A stretch of 46,573 nucleotides of DNA from positions 1-46,573 of IMG/VR virus record IMGVR_UViG_3300022562_000313; one strand, written 5' to 3'. The translations under genes were made by a program, and so were the position numbers. Every line of letters begins with the position of its first letter. Position 1 is the first letter of the stretch. Shown here piece after piece: positions 2,227 through 11,074 of this stretch. The stretch comes from a virus. The notes under the pieces are model-generated. The model had not been told where the DNA came from. It did no database searches and saw only the letters and a program-made list of their open reading frames with translations.

Positions 2227-2464
2227 GGGCGACCTTCCTTATAATAAATACATCTATATAAATATATACTAGATAAATGTAACTAAATATACTTAGTTAA
2301 ATCGCGTCTTTAATAACGGGGTGACAATGTTCCGGCATTTGAAATTGCTTTCCGTCGTATGAGCTTCTAAGAGGCTCTTGCATCGTCGCTGTAATCAGAA
2401 TGGCAAACGATTTCTGAACCGAATCGATACAAACCGTGTGAAAGTGCCTGCAAACGGGCACAAT
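2227..2464. other. AT-rich intergenic core between divergent operons
   Basis: No gene is visible here. Bases 2236-2310 are very AT-rich with runs such as TAAATA, TATATAAATATATA and palindromic AGTTAAAT/TACTTAGT pieces, in contrast to the balanced composition of the flanking genes. A copy of TCCGTCGTAT lies at 2351-2360. The segment could be a DNA-unwinding element, an upstream activating region for the two promoters, or part of an origin; the sequence alone does not decide. Confidence 0.5.
2351..2360. repeat. TCCGTCGTAT element, copy 3
   Basis: Third exact copy, in the divergent control region between the two promoters. Its placement near promoters and gene ends favours a protein-binding or RNA-processing site over coding chance. 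Confidence 0.5.
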
Positions 2465-2494
2465 TTGACAAGCCGCCGATGCCTCCGGTACTAT
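2465..2494 (+). promoter_or_regulatory. Promoter for the rightward early/middle operon
   Basis: TTGACA (2465-2470), an 18-base spacer and TACTAT (2489-2494, four of six matches) lie 49 bases before the ATG at 2543. The -35 region shares TTGACAAGCC with the leftward promoter. The predicted leader contains a small hairpin, GCCCC-AATCC-GGGGC (about 2502-2516), before the AGGAGGG ribosome binding site. Confidence 0.6.
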
Positions 2495-2542
2495 GGAATC
2501 AGCCCCAATCCGGGGCAGCCACTACGACCTAGGAGGGTCACC

Positions 2543-3823
2543 ATGGCGGGTTTCACACTAAGATCGGCGGGGAACAGGTCGGGTTCCTACGCAACGAGCC
2601 GTGAGTTTCAGATTGTAAAGCGAGGCCCACGGCGAGCCGATATCGTAGATATTAGCTCAGGTCAGGTAATTACATCGTTCGAGTTCGACAGGACGATGCC
2701 GGAATTCTTTAAGGTTCAGGTCGATCCGGGCTCTAACCGCGTCTATGACTTTAGTGGTCAGCCTATTGGCTCGGCCATGCCGTCAGGCGGTTTCTACACA
2801 CCAGTTGTAGATGTAGAGCCTACTGCTTCTGCCGAGAGCATCGACACGATTAAGGAGGCTAGCTCTACTAAGAACCGCAACTGGCGCATCGATGAGGGCA
2901 TCTTCTACGTTCGCCCTACTCCTGAGTCTCCCGACGAGACGGAGATTGGCCTTCCGCTCGCCTCTGGCTCTCATCCTACGACTCCTACTAACGTGGATGA
3001 AATCATGGGGCAGCACGAAATGTTGTTCAACATCGCTCTTGCTATCTTCTATGACATCCCTAGCTTGCTTTGCGGCCCTACGGGTGTCGGCAAGACGACG
3101 GTGTACCGCTGGCTGGCTGAGAAGCTAGGCTATGCGTTCTTCCTCATGCCTATCAGCCGTGGTACGGAGTCTGCTCACTTGGTAGGCGAGTATATGCCTA
3201 CCGAGGGTGAGAACGGTTCTGTCCCGTTCGGCTGGACTAGTGGCCCGGTGACGGAGGCTGCTCTTACAAGTCATACCCATCCTACACTACTCGTGTTCGA
3301 TGAGCTTAACCGCATCGGGAACATCGCGGAGTTTGCTCGCATCTACTCTGTCCTTGACGATAGCCGCGTGCTTGAGCTTAAGGAGAAGCGGAGTAAGACA
3401 AAGACTGCCGAAATCATCGCCATTAAGGAACTTAACATCGGCGGTACGATGAACCCGGTTGAGGATGATGGTGCAGACTACATCGGTGTTCAGGAGCTAG
3501 ACCCGGCCCTTTCGTCTCGCTTCCTGATTCAGCCGACTATCAGCTATCCCGATAGCAAGACGGAGACGGCTGCTCTCGTTAAGAGAGTCGAGCGTGACGG
3601 TGTGACGCTTGAGATTAAGACCGCGCTTAAGATGGTGAACGCGGCCAATAAGATCAGGCAGTCTCCTGATGTGCGCTTCCCTATCTCATTCCGTGAGCTT
3701 AGGGCATGGGCGCTGGCAATCCCCTACCTCGGCTACAAGCGAGCGGCTGAGTCTACGGTGTTGCCTAAGTGCCCTCCCGTCTATCAGACGGATGTTCGTA
3801 CCCTTCTAGCCTTGCAGGGGTGA
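2543..3823 (+). CDS. MoxR/CbbQ-type AAA+ ATPase
   Basis: The start is the ATG at 2543 behind AGGAGGG (2531-2537); an in-frame ATG at 2378 has no ribosome binding site and lies upstream of the promoter. The 426-residue protein has about 150 N-terminal residues of unclear fold, then an AAA+ domain: Walker A GPTGVGKTT (178-186), Walker B LLVFDELN (249-256), sensor-1-like GGTMNP (300-305) and a likely arginine finger in ALSSRF (322-327). MoxR-type ATPases work as hexameric chaperone-like machines with VWA-domain partners, and the next gene encodes such a partner. CobS-type cobalt chelatase ATPases are the nearest well-studied relatives; nothing else here suggests cobalamin synthesis, so a remodelling role during infection is more likely. 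Confidence 0.88.
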   Translation: MAGFTLRSAGNRSGSYATSREFQIVKRGPRRADIVDISSGQVITSFEFDRTMPEFFKVQVDPGSNRVYDFSGQPIGSAMPSGGFYTPVVDVEPTASAESIDTIKEASSTKNRNWRIDEGIFYVRPTPESPDETEIGLPLASGSHPTTPTNVDEIMGQHEMLFNIALAIFYDIPSLLCGPTGVGKTTVYRWLAEKLGYAFFLMPISRGTESAHLVGEYMPTEGENGSVPFGWTSGPVTEAALTSHTHPTLLVFDELNRIGNIAEFARIYSVLDDSRVLELKEKRSKTKTAEIIAIKELNIGGTMNPVEDDGADYIGVQELDPALSSRFLIQPTISYPDSKTETAALVKRVERDGVTLEIKTALKMVNAANKIRQSPDVRFPISFRELRAWALAIPYLGYKRAAESTVLPKCPPVYQTDVRTLLALQG

Positions 3824-3828
3824 GTCCT

Positions 3829-5505
3829 ATGGCGAGACAGCATCTAGAAATGAAAGAAACCATCGATCCCCGTGTAGCTACACAGATGCGAGAGCGTGTA
3901 GTTAATACGACCTCGCTTCTGGCTGACGAAGATGAGCCCATTAAGGAGGAACTAGGGGAGAATTGGGCGGTAGACCTTAAGAAGCGCGTCGTCCATTGGC
4001 GCGTAACTAATCCGTTCCCTCCCTACAATGTTCTCACTCCTGAGGAGTTGACTTATCTAGTGGCTCACGAGTCGGGGCATCTAACCGATAGTAGCGTGTT
4101 CAAGACTTATCAAGACGCCAGGAGAGAGTCATTCGACCGCTTCGTTAATGCTTACGAAGATATCCGTATTGAGGATATACAGCAGAAGCGGTATCCCGGC
4201 TTCGAGCAATTTAAGGACACGATGACGCCTAAGGTAGAGTCGTTCTGGCTCGATGACGGTGTTCTTAGACATACAGAACCAACCGATCAGTACGGCTTTC
4301 TTTCCTGGGCTTACGAGAACCTGGACGAAGAGGGCATCGCTAAGGCTGAGAAGTTGTGTCACCCTGAGGTTGTCAAGCTATACGACGATGATCTTAGGAA
4401 GCGTGTCAAGGCTCTAAATAGTACGCAAGAGGTCGCCAACGAGCTTGAGTCTATCTATGAGAAGATTCAAGAGGCGACGAACACCGTTCCTCAGGGCGGT
4501 GGTAAGCAAGGTAGAGATAAAGACTCTGGGCCTCAAGGCGGTGTCTCGGGCATGGGGCAGAAGGCTGATACGGCCCTAGAACAGGCTAGATCAGCAGCAC
4601 CGAATACTCATAGAGGTAAGGCTGAGGCATCCTATGATGCCAAGATGGATGCTCATAGACAGTCCACTAACGTAGTTCAAGACGAGATTACCGCTAGAGA
4701 TTGGGGCAGCTTCGAGCAGAACGCTAGCACTAGAGAAGAAGCCCCTGAACCCGGTGGCGGTACTTCCGACCATGGCGTAGGCCGATACGGTGTAGCCTAT
4801 TGGAAGGATGAGGCTGCTAAGGTGCGTGTCCCTATCAATAACCTGCATAGGCGGCTCATGTCCGTTCTTAGAGCTAATAAGCAGGATGTGTGGGAGTCCT
4901 CTCATAAGAGAGGGCGGCTCGATAATAGAACCAGCTTTAGAGTGATGACAGGTAACCCGAGAGTCTTTAAGCGTAAGCACGCTTTCGGACACTATGATTA
5001 CCTTGTTGGTCTAGTCATCGACGTGTCAGGTTCTATGGAGGGCCGCAAGATTCAGGCGACTAGAGCTACAGTCACCATCGGTGAGGCTCTAGACAAGACG
5101 GGAATCCCGTTCTTTATGATCACCTATTCGGATAGAGTAACAGCGTACAAGCCCTCACGCTTCTCTCTTAAGAAGCATGGTGACGCTATAGCCTCTAGAA
5201 CGCTGTTTCCAGGGGGAGGCACGGGTGAGTATTCAGCCCTATACGGAGCCCTACAGGAGTTTCATTCAGCGTCCCCTGAGACTGTTAAGATTATGATTGC
5301 AATTACGGACGGGACTACCTCTAGACAGGAGTTGAGCAGGATGCACTTGCAGGAGATGGATAAGCTAGGAGTCCACGCTTTCCAGATTGGACTAAACATC
5401 CCTCCTGCTGAGTACTACGAACACGGTATTCAAGTGGATGATGTTAACCAGCTTGCTCCTGAGATTGGTAAGATTCTCAAGAAGCTGGTGAAGCAGGGTG
5501 TTTAG
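3829..5505 (+). CDS. VWA-domain protein with zincin-like HExxH motif, partner of the AAA+ ATPase
   Basis: I choose the ATG at 3829 (AGGGGTGAG upstream, five bases past the ATPase stop) over an earlier in-frame ATG at 3769 inside that gene. The 558-residue product has two parts. Residues 65-125 carry HESGH (80-84) followed by NAYEDIRIED (107-116), a pattern like the zincin-type metallopeptidase-like domain found N-terminal to VWA domains in CobT-related proteins. Residues 220-320 are a low-complexity linker. Residues 388-558 form a VWA domain with a complete MIDAS: DVSGS (398-402), the Thr of GGGT (465) and ITDG (492-495). MoxR/VWA pairs usually load or remodel a target complex. Whether the HExxH is catalytic is not known. 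Confidence 0.85.
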   Translation: MARQHLEMKETIDPRVATQMRERVVNTTSLLADEDEPIKEELGENWAVDLKKRVVHWRVTNPFPPYNVLTPEELTYLVAHESGHLTDSSVFKTYQDARRESFDRFVNAYEDIRIEDIQQKRYPGFEQFKDTMTPKVESFWLDDGVLRHTEPTDQYGFLSWAYENLDEEGIAKAEKLCHPEVVKLYDDDLRKRVKALNSTQEVANELESIYEKIQEATNTVPQGGGKQGRDKDSGPQGGVSGMGQKADTALEQARSAAPNTHRGKAEASYDAKMDAHRQSTNVVQDEITARDWGSFEQNASTREEAPEPGGGTSDHGVGRYGVAYWKDEAAKVRVPINNLHRRLMSVLRANKQDVWESSHKRGRLDNRTSFRVMTGNPRVFKRKHAFGHYDYLVGLVIDVSGSMEGRKIQATRATVTIGEALDKTGIPFFMITYSDRVTAYKPSRFSLKKHGDAIASRTLFPGGGTGEYSALYGALQEFHSASPETVKIMIAITDGTTSRQELSRMHLQEMDKLGVHAFQIGLNIPPAEYYEHGIQVDDVNQLAPEIGKILKKLVKQGV

Positions 5506-6469: not shown

Positions 6470-6687
6470 GGTTGCAGGAAACCACACTCGATATGCTAGA
6501 CCAGGCTATCGATGCCGGGGGTCTAGTAGTAGAAGAGTTTGAGAAGCGCCCGGATCAGAGCCTATCAGCGTTTGAAGCCCGTAAGGTATTCGGACTCATC
6601 TCTCTACAACTTTCCCTACTCCAAGCCATCAGTCTCACCCTTCGGATTGAACATCGTCTAAGTAAGAAGGAGGATATCGAAATATGA
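6466..6687 (+). CDS. Small helical hypothetical protein (73 aa)
   Basis: ATG at 6466 overlaps the previous stop (ATGA) and follows GGAGGTGAT. The product is all-helical, with a Leu/Ile/Ser-rich amphipathic stretch (GLISLQLSLLQAISLTLRIE, about 43-62) that could be a coiled coil or dimerisation helix. It ends four bases into the Ku gene (ATGA). Its place directly before Ku makes an accessory role in end-joining thinkable, but nothing in the sequence shows it. Confidence 0.6.
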   Translation: MRLQETTLDMLDQAIDAGGLVVEEFEKRPDQSLSAFEARKVFGLISLQLSLLQAISLTLRIEHRLSKKEDIEI

Positions 6688-7454
6688 AAGCGTGGCGGCA
6701 CCTAAACATAGCCTTCGGGCTTATTAACGTCCCTGTAGGTATCTCTCCCCTCGTGGAACCCTCAGGGATTAGTGGTTCGTATGTGTGTTCGGAGCATCAC
6801 AACAAGCTAACAACGCACTATGACTGCCCTAATTGTGAGGGTGTCATCCCTGAACGGGTCAAGGCTTACACTAACTCTAAGGGAGAGGCCGTCATCCTGA
6901 CGGAGGGCGACCTGCCCACGGTGCCTAAGTCTGACCACACGCTAAAGCTAGACACGTTCATTCCTGTGACGGAGGTAGATCCCGTCTACTTCAACAAGAC
7001 ATACATCCTCTACCCTAAGAACAACGAGTCAGTAGCAGAAGTCAAGGGCTTTAAGCTACTGCAAGAGGCGCTCTCGTCTACCGACCTGGCCGCTGTAGGT
7101 AGCGTCCTTCTAGACAAGAGCCCCGTGCCTGCCCTTGTTAGGTATAGCCCTGTGGCGGGTACGATTGTGCTGCACACCTGCCACTACCAGTCTGAGCTAT
7201 CCGAGACTAAACTTAATACGGTCTTGGGATATCAGACAGGAGTGGACGTGCCCACTAAAGAGCTAGACATGGGCAAGGCTATCATCCAGAGTGCGGTGTC
7301 CTCCTGGGATATCACGGTGTACTCTAACGAGTATGCGGATAGCCTAAAGGAAGTGATCGAAGGCAAGAAGCAGCCTCGCAGTAAGAAGAAGGCTAAGACA
7401 CAAGAGGCTGACCCCGGTAAGCTCATCGAAGAGATGTTTAAGGGGATCAAATGA
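6684..7454 (+). CDS. ku: Ku-type DNA end-binding protein
   Basis: The 256-residue product begins MKAWRHLNIAFGLINVPVGI, the typical opening of the prokaryotic Ku core, and continues through the beta-barrel region with a Cys/His patch (SEHHNKL, YDCPNCEG) to a basic C-terminal tail (QPRSKKKAKT). Bacterial Ku forms a ring-like dimer on double-strand ends and recruits ligase D. In mycobacteriophages Omega and Corndog a phage Ku is known and has been linked to circularising genomes with short cohesive ends using host LigD. No ligase gene is visible in this window, so host ligase would be needed. Starts by ATGA overlap with the upstream gene. Confidence 0.92.
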   Translation: MKAWRHLNIAFGLINVPVGISPLVEPSGISGSYVCSEHHNKLTTHYDCPNCEGVIPERVKAYTNSKGEAVILTEGDLPTVPKSDHTLKLDTFIPVTEVDPVYFNKTYILYPKNNESVAEVKGFKLLQEALSSTDLAAVGSVLLDKSPVPALVRYSPVAGTIVLHTCHYQSELSETKLNTVLGYQTGVDVPTKELDMGKAIIQSAVSSWDITVYSNEYADSLKEVIEGKKQPRSKKKAKTQEADPGKLIEEMFKGIK

Positions 7455-7576: not shown

Positions 7577-8443
7577 ATGACAAAGATACCATACGATGAC
7601 CTAATTCAGGACTGTCTGGACGATCTTAATAGACCGGCCGATAGATTCCTTCATTGTTCCTCAGACATTGTAGGTAGCCTACGCCACGCGCAGCTTAGGG
7701 CTGCTGGTGTACCTCTGCCTAAGCGTCCCATCACCGACTCTATTAGACTAACCACGGGTACGCTGTGGCATGAGTTTCTACATGAGGGACTTAAGCGCCA
7801 GGGTGTTCCTATCCTGACGGAGATAAACGTAGACGAGGGACTACCTGACGGGTGGAGCGGTACTGCTGACTGGCTCATTTGGAATAAGGGTAAGAGACGC
7901 TTCGACCTGACCGACCTTAAGACTACTAAGGGTGAGGGTATGTCGTTCCTCGGGACGGAGCCTAAGGAGGAACATCACGCTCAGGCTTCCGCGTATTACT
8001 ACGCACTAGTTAATATGGGCTACCCGATGTCCGATGATATACACGTCCTGTATCTGCCTATGAATCAGCCGACGTGGAAGAACAGCGCCCAAGTGGGCCC
8101 CGTCGTATTGTCAGCGAGGCCACTTGAATACAACGCATTGAATATAAAGATGCGTAACAGGGCGAGGAAGATGGAGCAGTTTCTATATGAGTTCGATCAC
8201 ACAGGTAACTTACTGAATCCGTATCTAGCTGAGCCTATGGAGCGAGTGCAGAAGATGAATAGCAGATTTGAGGTTAGTCTGAATCCGCATTGGCTCACCA
8301 AGTACTGCCCTTACCCCGACAATCTATGCAACTGCAATACACAAAAGACTACGAAGATAGGAGAATGGAGAAATGGCGACGCAGGATGGCAGTACCTCCC
8401 CCGACGCGGCTATGAATCTATCAAGCCCAATCTACGACCCTAA
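7577..8443 (+). CDS. PD-(D/E)XK exonuclease, Cas4/RecB-like
   Basis: The 288-residue protein shows the order of motifs expected for this fold: an early His (LWHEFLHE, H65), GTAD (D98), DLTDLKTTK (D113, K115) and QASAYYY (Q136 to Y142). A Cys cluster near the end (CPYPDNLCNCN) might bind metal or an iron-sulphur cluster as in Cas4/AddB-type enzymes. It would resect DNA 5' to 3' and make single strands for the annealing protein encoded next. No Shine-Dalgarno is visible: the ATG follows the hairpin at once, and no better start exists downstream. Confidence 0.82.
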   Translation: MTKIPYDDLIQDCLDDLNRPADRFLHCSSDIVGSLRHAQLRAAGVPLPKRPITDSIRLTTGTLWHEFLHEGLKRQGVPILTEINVDEGLPDGWSGTADWLIWNKGKRRFDLTDLKTTKGEGMSFLGTEPKEEHHAQASAYYYALVNMGYPMSDDIHVLYLPMNQPTWKNSAQVGPVVLSARPLEYNALNIKMRNRARKMEQFLYEFDHTGNLLNPYLAEPMERVQKMNSRFEVSLNPHWLTKYCPYPDNLCNCNTQKTTKIGEWRNGDAGWQYLPRRGYESIKPNLRP

Positions 8444-9017
8444 GCCTACGACGGGCAGCATCGGGATGCAATGGGATGGAACCACTAAGCAGTACGTTGC
8501 TATACAGGGCATGAATACCACGCTTCCTACTACTAACCCCGTAGAGAACCTTAAACGAGGTGCTGAGAAGTTCCCGGTTGAGGACACTCGGCAGCGCCAA
8601 GGACCGGGCGGGATCATGCTTGACTATATCCCTATCGAGAAAGTCTTGGCTCGTCTTGCTGAGATCGATCCAGCTTATGAGATTGAGGTTAGAAAAACTA
8701 TCGTTGAAAAGGATGTAAATTATTGGGTCGTCTTTGTTCAACTCGATCTTCTGATGCACGGTCGGTCAATTTCGGGAACGGGGTCAGGGGCTAGTTCTGA
8801 CTCCGACATGGCGATCAAGACAGCGCACAGCGAGGCGATCAAGAACGCTGCTAAGAACGGCTGGCATGTCGGGCTCTATCTATGGGACGAGAGCGAGCGT
8901 GAGCTACTCGCAGAGGAACGGGCTGGCGGGTCTAGAAAGGGGGCGAAGCCGCCGCCGAAGAGGGTAAAGTCGCGTCCTGTGCCTGCTCCTACCGAAGTGG
9001 AAGGATTCGACGGATGA
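8373..9017 (+). CDS. Rad52-like single-strand annealing recombinase
   Basis: Start ATG at 8373 follows AGGAGA and overlaps the exonuclease gene by 71 bases. The core (about residues 70-175) runs from QRQGPGGIMLDYIPIEKV through a beta-sheet region to SDSDMAIKTAHSEAIKNAAK and GWHVGLYLWDE, a layout like the Rad52/Sak family, where a conserved T-x-A-x-x-x-A-x-K-R-A helix is followed by G-x-x-L-Y. Residues 185-214 form a disordered basic/Pro tail, possibly for SSB contact. Paired with the exonuclease and SSB it makes a complete recombination module. Confidence 0.78.
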   Translation: MATQDGSTSPDAAMNLSSPIYDPKPTTGSIGMQWDGTTKQYVAIQGMNTTLPTTNPVENLKRGAEKFPVEDTRQRQGPGGIMLDYIPIEKVLARLAEIDPAYEIEVRKTIVEKDVNYWVVFVQLDLLMHGRSISGTGSGASSDSDMAIKTAHSEAIKNAAKNGWHVGLYLWDESERELLAEERAGGSRKGAKPPPKRVKSRPVPAPTEVEGFDG

Positions 9018-9955
9018 TCATAGCTCTAGACACCGAGACTGACAACACCTTCTATCCCTTCTGCGTGACAGAGGCGTGGCGGGATAGCCATGGCGTACTT
9101 AATACGGCCTATCACGACCTGCGTAAACATAACTATACACTAGACCCTAGAAATACCTATGTGTTTCACAATGCGAAGTTCGATCTGCTTGCGCTGTGGA
9201 AGGCGGGCTGCATTGTGGACATGGAGGCTATTAGTTTCCATGATACTGAGACGATGGCTCACCTCATAAACGAACACGCCAAGCGTGGCCTTAAGCATCT
9301 GGCTAGAGAGGAGCTTGGCATGAACACCACGTCAGAGGAAGCCCTTAAGCAGTATATAAAGGATAACAAGATGAAGAAGTCGGACGGCTACGACAAGATT
9401 CCCGACCACATTATCCAGCCGTATGCTAGGGATGATGCGCTCTATACTCTACTGCTCTACGAGAAGTATGAAGCCTCACTTCCCAAAGACCTGGATCGAT
9501 TGTATAAGCTTGAGCTAAAAGTCACCCGTGTTCTGTTGCGTATGGAACAGGATGGGATGAAGATAGACTTGCATAGGTTGGAGGAACTGCACAAGGAGTA
9601 CTCTGGCAAGCTACTCGACCTAGAATTGGAGCTTCGTCGTATGGTTAACAACGACGAGTTCAATCCTAACTCACCGCAGCAGGTGAAGAAGGTTCTCCTC
9701 GAACAGTACGGCCTTCATGTTCCCGGTACGGGGGAGGAAGTCCTGCTTGCTATCGAGAGTGAGTCGGGGTCTGCCTTCGTGAACAAGCTGTTGGAATACC
9801 GAGGTACCTCAAAGATTCTCCGCACCTACATCGAAGCCCTGAGACGGGAGGTTCAGGCAGCAGGCGGTGGGTACGGTATCTTGACCCCTAACTTTAGACA
9901 ACATGGCGCTCGTACTGGACGCATGAGTAGCGGCGCTATCCAGACAGGAGACTGA
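9014..9955 (+). CDS. DNA polymerase I family A, N-terminal part: 3'-5' exonuclease and thumb
   Basis: The 313 residues carry exonuclease motifs I (DTETD, D6/E8), II (HNAKFD, 52-57) and III (YARDDALY, Y137/D141), then the thumb and the start of the palm up to ARTGRMSSGAI. The frame stops with TGA at 9953-9955 just where the family continues with an NxQNIP motif. There is no 5'-3' exonuclease domain, as is common in phages. The break is not a simple point mutation: the stop is followed by a start with its own ribosome binding site (see next entry). Confidence 0.9.
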   Translation: MIIALDTETDNTFYPFCVTEAWRDSHGVLNTAYHDLRKHNYTLDPRNTYVFHNAKFDLLALWKAGCIVDMEAISFHDTETMAHLINEHAKRGLKHLAREELGMNTTSEEALKQYIKDNKMKKSDGYDKIPDHIIQPYARDDALYTLLLYEKYEASLPKDLDRLYKLELKVTRVLLRMEQDGMKIDLHRLEELHKEYSGKLLDLELELRRMVNNDEFNPNSPQQVKKVLLEQYGLHVPGTGEEVLLAIESESGSAFVNKLLEYRGTSKILRTYIEALRREVQAAGGGYGILTPNFRQHGARTGRMSSGAIQTGD

Positions 9956-10728
9956 TGAACACTCAGAACATTCCCCGCTCTCATGTCATCAAGAGTTGCT
10001 TCGTCCCTAAGCGAGGGCTCTTTATGTTCTTCGACTACTCGCAGATCGAATACCGCTTGCTGGCCTTCTACCTCGACAAGATGGGTTATCCATCCATGGC
10101 CGAGGTCTTTAAGACCGGGCGTGACCTGCAGACGGAGACAGCTAAGGCGATCTACAACGTCACCCGTGAGCCTACACCTGACGAGAGGCACGCAGGTAAG
10201 ACCCTTAACTTCTCCATGATCTACGGAGGCGGAACCAAGACGGTGATGAAGCAGCTAGGCGTGACTCGACCCGAGGCTACGAAGCTGCTCAATGCGTTCC
10301 ACAAACAGTGGCCTGGTATTGGACGACCTACATGGAGCGGTGGCATCCCTTACGTTGACCCGAACACCTTGACTGGTGCGCTACGTCAGAGGTATGCGAA
10401 TAGAGGATACATCAAGACTATCTATGGAAGGCATCTCCATCCTCTGTCGGAGCATAAGATTCTCAATGCCGTGGTGCAGGGTAGTGCGGCTGATCTTATG
10501 CGAGCATCTCTTGTTGCCGTTGACGAATACCTATTTACTAACTCATACAATGATAGAATTGTAAACGTAATCCATGATGAAATTATGGTGGACTGTGCTA
10601 CCACTAGCGAACGTCAATACCGGGTAACTATTCCGTCTCTAATGATCGATCCGCATATCCATGCGGTAGTTCCTATCGAAGTTTCAGTCGCAACATCCAC
10701 TACTAATTGGGGAGATAAACATGAGTGA
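9955..10728 (+). CDS. DNA polymerase I family A, C-terminal part: fingers and palm
   Basis: The ATG at 9955 overlaps the upstream stop (TGATG) and sits behind AGGAG (9946-9950). The 257-residue protein starts MNTQNIPRSH and holds all polymerase motifs: A DYSQIE (27-32, D27), B R78-x3-K82-x3-F86-x3-YG (90-91) and C HDE (207-209). The two halves therefore contain one complete catalytic set. If the conserved spacing is assumed, 17 bases (about 9941-9957) are extra and contain the ribosome binding site, stop and start. Coupled translation would give two subunits that assemble. It ends by overlapping the next gene by 8 bases. Confidence 0.9.
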   Translation: MNTQNIPRSHVIKSCFVPKRGLFMFFDYSQIEYRLLAFYLDKMGYPSMAEVFKTGRDLQTETAKAIYNVTREPTPDERHAGKTLNFSMIYGGGTKTVMKQLGVTRPEATKLLNAFHKQWPGIGRPTWSGGIPYVDPNTLTGALRQRYANRGYIKTIYGRHLHPLSEHKILNAVVQGSAADLMRASLVAVDEYLFTNSYNDRIVNVIHDEIMVDCATTSERQYRVTIPSLMIDPHIHAVVPIEVSVATSTTNWGDKHE

Positions 10729-11074
10729 AGCTATCCCGCCCTATAACGGGCCTAATACTATTCACCCCTCGTCTGCACGGTTCTATGAGCTACTGGATGA
10801 GGCACGTCACACGCACAACCTTAAGCAGCGAGACTATGGTACTGACGATGACCCGTTCGCCAACGTCCGAGCAGGCGAAGCCTTCGGCATCCCTGCCTGG
10901 GTAGGCTGCATGATTCGAGCCAACGACAAGATGCGGAGGATCATGGCGTTCGCAAGGAAAGGCGAGCTTTCTAACGAGTCTCTCCGAGACTCGCTCATGG
11001 ACCTCGCTGTGTATTCGCTCATAGGTATCGTCCTTCTAGAGCAGGAGCAGAAGCAGCCGGGAGGTTTGCCGTGA
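10721..11074 (+). CDS. DUF1599 / nucleotide-modification-associated domain protein
   Basis: The 117-residue protein matches what I remember of this phage family: a YG-x-D-x-DPF-x-N motif (DYGTDDDPFANV), GIPAWVGCMIRANDK, a basic RRIMAFARKG segment and a final ESLRDSLMDLAVYSLIGIVLL helix. The fold resembles all-alpha MazG-type nucleotide pyrophosphohydrolases, so a role in nucleotide metabolism is plausible; family members are often near modified-base or replication genes. The ATG overlaps the polymerase stop (ATGAGTGA). Confidence 0.75.
   Translation: MSEAIPPYNGPNTIHPSSARFYELLDEARHTHNLKQRDYGTDDDPFANVRAGEAFGIPAWVGCMIRANDKMRRIMAFARKGELSNESLRDSLMDLAVYSLIGIVLLEQEQKQPGGLP

Follow-up and report, generated by a model that had tools for sequence, protein, structure and literature searches.

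Several enzymes of T4-like phages are encoded by genes in pieces: nrdA of phage Aeh1 is split by mobE, the T4 topoisomerase genes 39 and 60 are separated by mobA, and gp43A/gp43B of an Aeromonas phage is a further example. The split NrdA of Aeh1 is fully functional (PMC2988022). Family A DNA polymerases are model enzymes that are normally studied as one chain. In the literature that we searched, a split PolA was otherwise found once, in the OM43 phages MEP401 and MEP402 (OP830906), in which gp13, gp14 and gp15 comprise the polymerase parts and a small gene between them (PMC10580990). Here we describe a family A polymerase that is divided inside the motif by which the arginine that grips the primer is connected with the remaining palm, a division that is kept by a whole phage clade. 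Because dozens of related uncultured phages have the cut in common, often with unrelated genes in the gap, it is long established and most probably functional, not a product of sequencing error. Neither this clade nor its cut site was found described in the literature searched; papers beyond the reach of that search could exist.

RESULTS

Two adjacent reading frames tile one family A DNA polymerase

The stretch of DNA that we analyzed (the window) comprises one virus record, 46,573 bases long, and all of its features given below lie on the plus strand. Two of its ORFs tile one family A DNA polymerase, as two chains and not as one continuous polypeptide. The first, polA-N (9014..9955), is a 313 aa ORF with the C-terminal end TGRMSSGAIQTGD and encodes the 3'-5' exonuclease, the thumb and the first part of the palm. 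The second, polA-C (9955..10728), is a 257 aa ORF that begins with MNTQNIP and encodes the remaining palm and the fingers. An earlier sequence-only reading had placed the break between TGRMSS and NTQNIP, and these ORF boundaries confirm it. Base 9955 is common to both ORFs, since the stop TGA occupies 9953-9955 and the start ATG 9955-9957, giving a TGATG overlap at 9953..9957. The same reading had proposed a well-spaced ribosome binding site; a Shine-Dalgarno sequence, AGGAG, is indeed present at 9946..9950, but with 4 nt to the second start its spacing is slightly tight. Given the stop/start overlap and a Shine-Dalgarno sequence inside the end of the first gene, translation of the two halves is probably coupled in the window. 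The neighboring genes (8373-9017 on one side and 10721-11074 on the other) each overlap the polymerase pair by a few bases, which places the pair in a tightly packed operon.

Pfam searches assigned the 3'-5' exonuclease domain (PF01612) to the first ORF only, in agreement with the earlier claim that all exonuclease motifs reside there, and divided DNA_pol_A (PF00476) between the ORFs, the first of which covers model positions 3-123 and the second 127-380. The Klenow chain was matched by the half-gene profiles at 30-350 (N-half) and 351-601 (C-half), with no gap and no overlap. When the TGR arginine is taken as Klenow Arg668, the cut falls five residues past it, between the equivalents of D673 and P674, so the proposal of a cut near the active site was borne out.

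Residue conservation was read from 48-row alignments that include unsplit relatives. In polA-N, D6 and E8 of exonuclease motif I (D6, T, E8; 9029..9037) are nearly invariant, and F56 and D57 of motif II (HNAKFD; 9167..9184) and Y137 and D141 of motif III (YARDDA; 9422..9439) are invariant. The first half of the TGR..QNIP motif, TGRMSS (9914..9931), contains the invariant G302 and R303, the latter corresponding by alignment to Klenow Arg668. It is followed by an extra C-terminal tail, GAIQTGD (9932..9952), the equivalent of GxAEA or xASNx tails in relatives; its last three residues have pLDDT values below 50 in the AlphaFold (AF2) model. In polA-C, the second half of the motif, NTQNIP (9958..9975), retains nearly invariant N2, Q4, N5 and P7. 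Motif A (DYSQIEYR, with the catalytic D27; 10033..10056) has invariant D27, E32 and R34, and motif B (RHAGKTLNFSMIY; 10186..10224) and motif C (HDE; 10573..10581) have invariant R78, K82 and Y90 and invariant H207, D208 and E209, respectively. The pair thus carries the family A signature, namely the exonuclease carboxylates (D-x-E, D, Y-x3-D), motifs A, B and C and TGR..QNIP, with each element invariant or nearly so. The view that all polymerase motifs lie in the second gene holds for motifs A, B and C, but not for the TGR of TGR..QNIP, which is in the first chain.

Two other loci in the window drew our attention. A phage-encoded Ku protein (PF02735, E 6e-23) lies at 6684-7454, ~1.5 kb upstream of the split polymerase, and 2378-5505 encodes an AAA_5 (MoxR-like) ATPase and, after it, a CobT/VWA-domain protein, a combination that is unusual in a phage.

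The same codon site is broken in a clade of related phages

We gathered relatives by alignment-based scans of viral contigs; L-numbers denote the loci fetched. The first relative scan, with the N-half alone as query, returned no matches. The first relative identified, L014 (45% identity), shares the codon site of the break, and ~340 bp with two small ORFs lie between its halves. Distinct C-halves were counted over all fetched loci, and identity was measured against four C-halves of the split clade, any one of which sufficed. Of 40 distinct relatives that reached 35% identity, 38 had the C-half frame closed just upstream; one scan pattern, with M before N, favors split genes, and three scans with patterns away from the break agreed. 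The two unsplit exceptions sit at the 35% identity edge and outside the split clade. Relatives in which the same DNA forms a single frame were looked for, and none was found within that clade. Below 35% identity, 95 of 96 relatives were open through the motif, and the remaining one ends at a contig edge. Wherever an N-half was present on a relative's contig, it stopped at the same codon site as in the window. The border in the clade follows the pattern TGRM[SA]S plus a tail of 5-8 residues, then [start]-N-x-Q-[N/T]-I-P, with TGRAAS in L246.

Split sequences formed one clade in a tree of the concatenated halves (34 members; SH-aLRT 99) and again in a second such tree (21 members; bootstrap/SH-aLRT 100/99). 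As the split polymerases are monophyletic, a single ancient splitting event is likely; it is the simplest reading of trees whose root is set by the chosen outgroup. The clade is known from metagenome assemblies, and no cultured member or close cultured relative was found in the phage collection, whose best matches were PolA proteins of ~30-35% identity. Among the other loci, L211 encodes a PolA with ~600 bp of unmatched sequence between C-half blocks (2660-3261), possibly another insertion in a phage polA.

The gap between the halves varies in length and content

TGRMSS and the N of NTQNIP are 26 nt apart in the window, compared with 9 nt in most unsplit relatives, as the sequence-only reading had estimated. 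That reading went on to propose a discrete 17-base insertion supplying the ribosome binding site, stop and start. The clade does not support this: its borders range from 17 to 2,219 nt and are often filled with genes, and we dropped the discrete insertion because the shortest border is already 17 nt and the length is fluid. Judged by these comparisons, the 26 nt in the window are one state of an old, fluid gene border.

Gaps of 17 nt were found in L040, L049, L050 and L052, and gaps of about 185-205 nt contain one small ORF each. The 781 nt gap of L046 encodes a family 2 glycosyltransferase (PF00535), the gaps of L073 and L184 encode SLOG-family proteins, and that of L072 a calcineurin-like phosphoesterase; the longest gap (2,219 nt) is that of L180. 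These inserts are ordinary genes, unrelated from phage to phage, and family searches of them found no uniform mobile element. Whatever the gap holds, the polymerase frame is never continuous, and where it holds complete genes, a read-through or fused product is impossible. L049 and L046 belong to the same tree group despite differing by a whole gene in the gap. The stop/start overlap GCATGA occurs at both ends of the glycosyltransferase gene, suggesting gene exchange via this short repeat.

There is no homing endonuclease at the break in the window. Two relatives have ORFs with weak matches below the Pfam cut-off, one LAGLIDADG_3-like (L072 gap; E 0.066) and one HNH-like (L158 gap; E 0.018). 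The latter ORF (L158 3227-3502) lies exactly before the C-half and is absent in the close relative L031, and it is possible that it represents a recent homing insertion at the border.

Some C-halves have no standard start codon

The C-half begins with ATG or GTG in most members and with TTG in L184. Five distinct relatives have no ATG, GTG or TTG in the open frame upstream of the C-half, and their apparent starts are ATA (L071 1615), ATC directly after a TAG (L072 6193), ACG (L073 6459), ATC (L246 3501) and CTG (L180 3498). A purine-rich, Shine-Dalgarno-like sequence (e.g., AAGGAGG or GGAAGGAAG) lies just upstream in four of the five and is weaker in L180. Five independent cases suggest natural non-AUG initiation, with single-base errors possible in one or two of the assemblies; the missing codons nonetheless count against a two-chain polymerase in that they demand an extra assumption. 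In L158, ATT immediately follows the HNH-like ORF, and a GTG three codons upstream could serve as the start. A similar situation is seen for an N-half: that of L014 (3700-3735) has no ATG, GTG or TTG in the open frame before the exonuclease motif and seems to start at an ATC, after GGGGAG, where the window has ATG.

Both halves appear to be constrained and to make up the sole PolA

In 116 N-half pairs and 84 C-half pairs with dS 0.1-1.5, median omega (dN/dS; Nei-Gojobori) was 0.18 and 0.14, respectively. The pairs are non-independent and dS is unreliable in GC-rich members, but values of this size indicate that purifying selection acts on both halves. PF00476 was present as exactly two pieces per record (about 2-124 and 125-380) in 18/18 records, with no second PolA beyond them, and no PolB or PolIII-alpha was found in the 12 records searched for these. 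AF2 models of the single chains were confident (mean pLDDT of 93.9 for the N-half and 94.6 for the C-half), and each matched Pol I structures. A known fold would be reproduced in any case, and the models of separate chains speak for intact halves, not for mutual binding.

Pol I that lacks Arg668 is about 1300-fold less proficient in catalysis (PMC11122685). Since the equivalent arginine is in chain 1, a working enzyme should need that chain. From the conserved residues, the selection on both halves, the absence of another PolA, the intact halves and the need for Arg668, we infer a non-covalent heterodimer of the two chains.

DISCUSSION

The interpretation we favor, to which we assign a probability of roughly 0.86, is that the only family A polymerase of this phage is a gene in pieces, with two probably coupled halves, products that join non-covalently, a single splitting event and a fluid border. 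The products of the adjacent genes, polA-N (through TGRMSS) and polA-C (QNIP and motifs A, B and C), would fold and form a Klenow-like heterodimer that is kept together by non-covalent contacts and is predicted to have polymerase activity. Chain 1 would supply the TGR arginine in trans to the active site of chain 2. A single break, in the common ancestor of these uncultured tailed phages, would account for the whole clade, and the border would have been an insertion point ever since, with whole genes gained and lost there. An origin via a mobile element such as a homing endonuclease is speculative.

A more far-reaching version holds that the pair is an obligate two-chain replicase with an active site shared in trans that has long been kept in a diverse clade of phages, with the border as a gene insertion point and with non-AUG starts (AUA, AUC, ACG and CUG) that set how the catalytic chain is expressed in some lineages. 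We advance it only tentatively and think it somewhat doubtful as a whole. If it is true, the phages would be maintaining the split as a design, for instance because the exonuclease/thumb chain can thereby be tuned or exchanged, and not tolerating an accident.

With each half encoded by its own gene and motifs A, B and C all in the C-half, the C-half might be a functional polymerase by itself and the N-half a separate exonuclease/thumb factor, with no Klenow-like enzyme being reconstituted. However, the thumb and the TGR motif are kept in the N-half under selection, and the C-half alone should be nearly inactive without Arg668; we consider such a division of labor improbable. To about the same degree, we doubt that the gap is an intron or a bypassed segment and the mature product one chain. 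An intron was suggested for the split OM43 phage polymerase by the authors who described it (PMC10580990), the site here is inside a highly conserved motif, which is a usual intron target, and some C-halves have no AUG, like a 3' exon. Yet the inserts gave no match to any Rfam intron family, including group I and group II covariance models, at the gathering cut-off or at E values up to 1, and they are ordinary, mutually unrelated genes. Gaps of 17-26 nt are too short for self-splicing, and most C-halves have their own ATG, GTG or TTG, with a Shine-Dalgarno-like sequence in most of those that do not. Translational bypass was rejected because kilobase inserts with complete genes cannot be spanned.

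Less probable still is that the polymerase is a single chain whose frame is interrupted by a mistake of sequencing or assembly, or by a recent inactivating frameshift. The window is a single metagenome-derived record in which stop and start overlap by one base, but 38 distinct relatives share the break, many of them with genes between the halves, which refutes error as a general explanation; purifying selection on both halves also argues against it. The sequence-only reading had preferred a functional two-polypeptide polymerase to an accidental frameshift, and the comparative evidence (38 relatives, one clade, selection, sole PolA) supports that preference well. Finally, a split-intein pair that rejoins the halves, as known in PolB of N. 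equitans (PMC4104785) and proposed for MIJ3 PolB (PMC6892783), is the least credible of these alternatives, for there is no intein sequence beside the break and no room for one on either chain, with 5-8 residues after TGRMSS in chain 1 and only the initiator residue before NxQNIP in chain 2.

The split calls for care in genome annotation and in virus surveys that rely on polA, since each of the two ORFs resembles a broken or partial gene. The clade would also offer natural, testable two-part polymerases and a clear case of splitting that survives gene insertion.

Split archaeal PolB (Methanobacteriales; N. equitans; PMC4104785) is likewise a replicative polymerase made as two polypeptides, but it belongs to family B and is intein-linked, whereas inteins are absent here. 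With the Klenow part of E. coli Pol I and other single-chain PolA enzymes, the pair shares the fold, the exonuclease motifs, TGR..QNIP and motifs A, B and C; the difference is that two chains are made, with the break between the D673 and P674 equivalents. In OM43 phages MEP401 and MEP402, too, a small gene separates two ORFs that together encode a family A polymerase. In MEP401 (L216 6111-8221), PolA is split just before motif A, ~20 residues further downstream than here, and a 77-aa ORF lies between the parts: gp13 ends with TGRLSSSSPNLQNFDGEIKTLFLSRYGE, and gp15 begins near motif A (MILNADAKALEW). Neither the cut site nor the clade is that of the window, and because the MEP401 sequence falls outside the clade on a long branch, the OM43 split looks independent. 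The T4-like genes in pieces are similar: there, too, the gene of a critical enzyme is divided at a conserved site, and the products of the two ORFs have to come together. As expected of such a gene, the polymerase gene is intact in relatives, is present as two ORFs here and has conserved its functional residues. The present case differs from the T4-like genes in that the enzyme is a family A DNA polymerase, that no homing endonuclease could be confidently assigned to the break, that varied ordinary genes occupy the gap across a deep clade, and that the cut lies inside the TGR..QNIP active-site motif.
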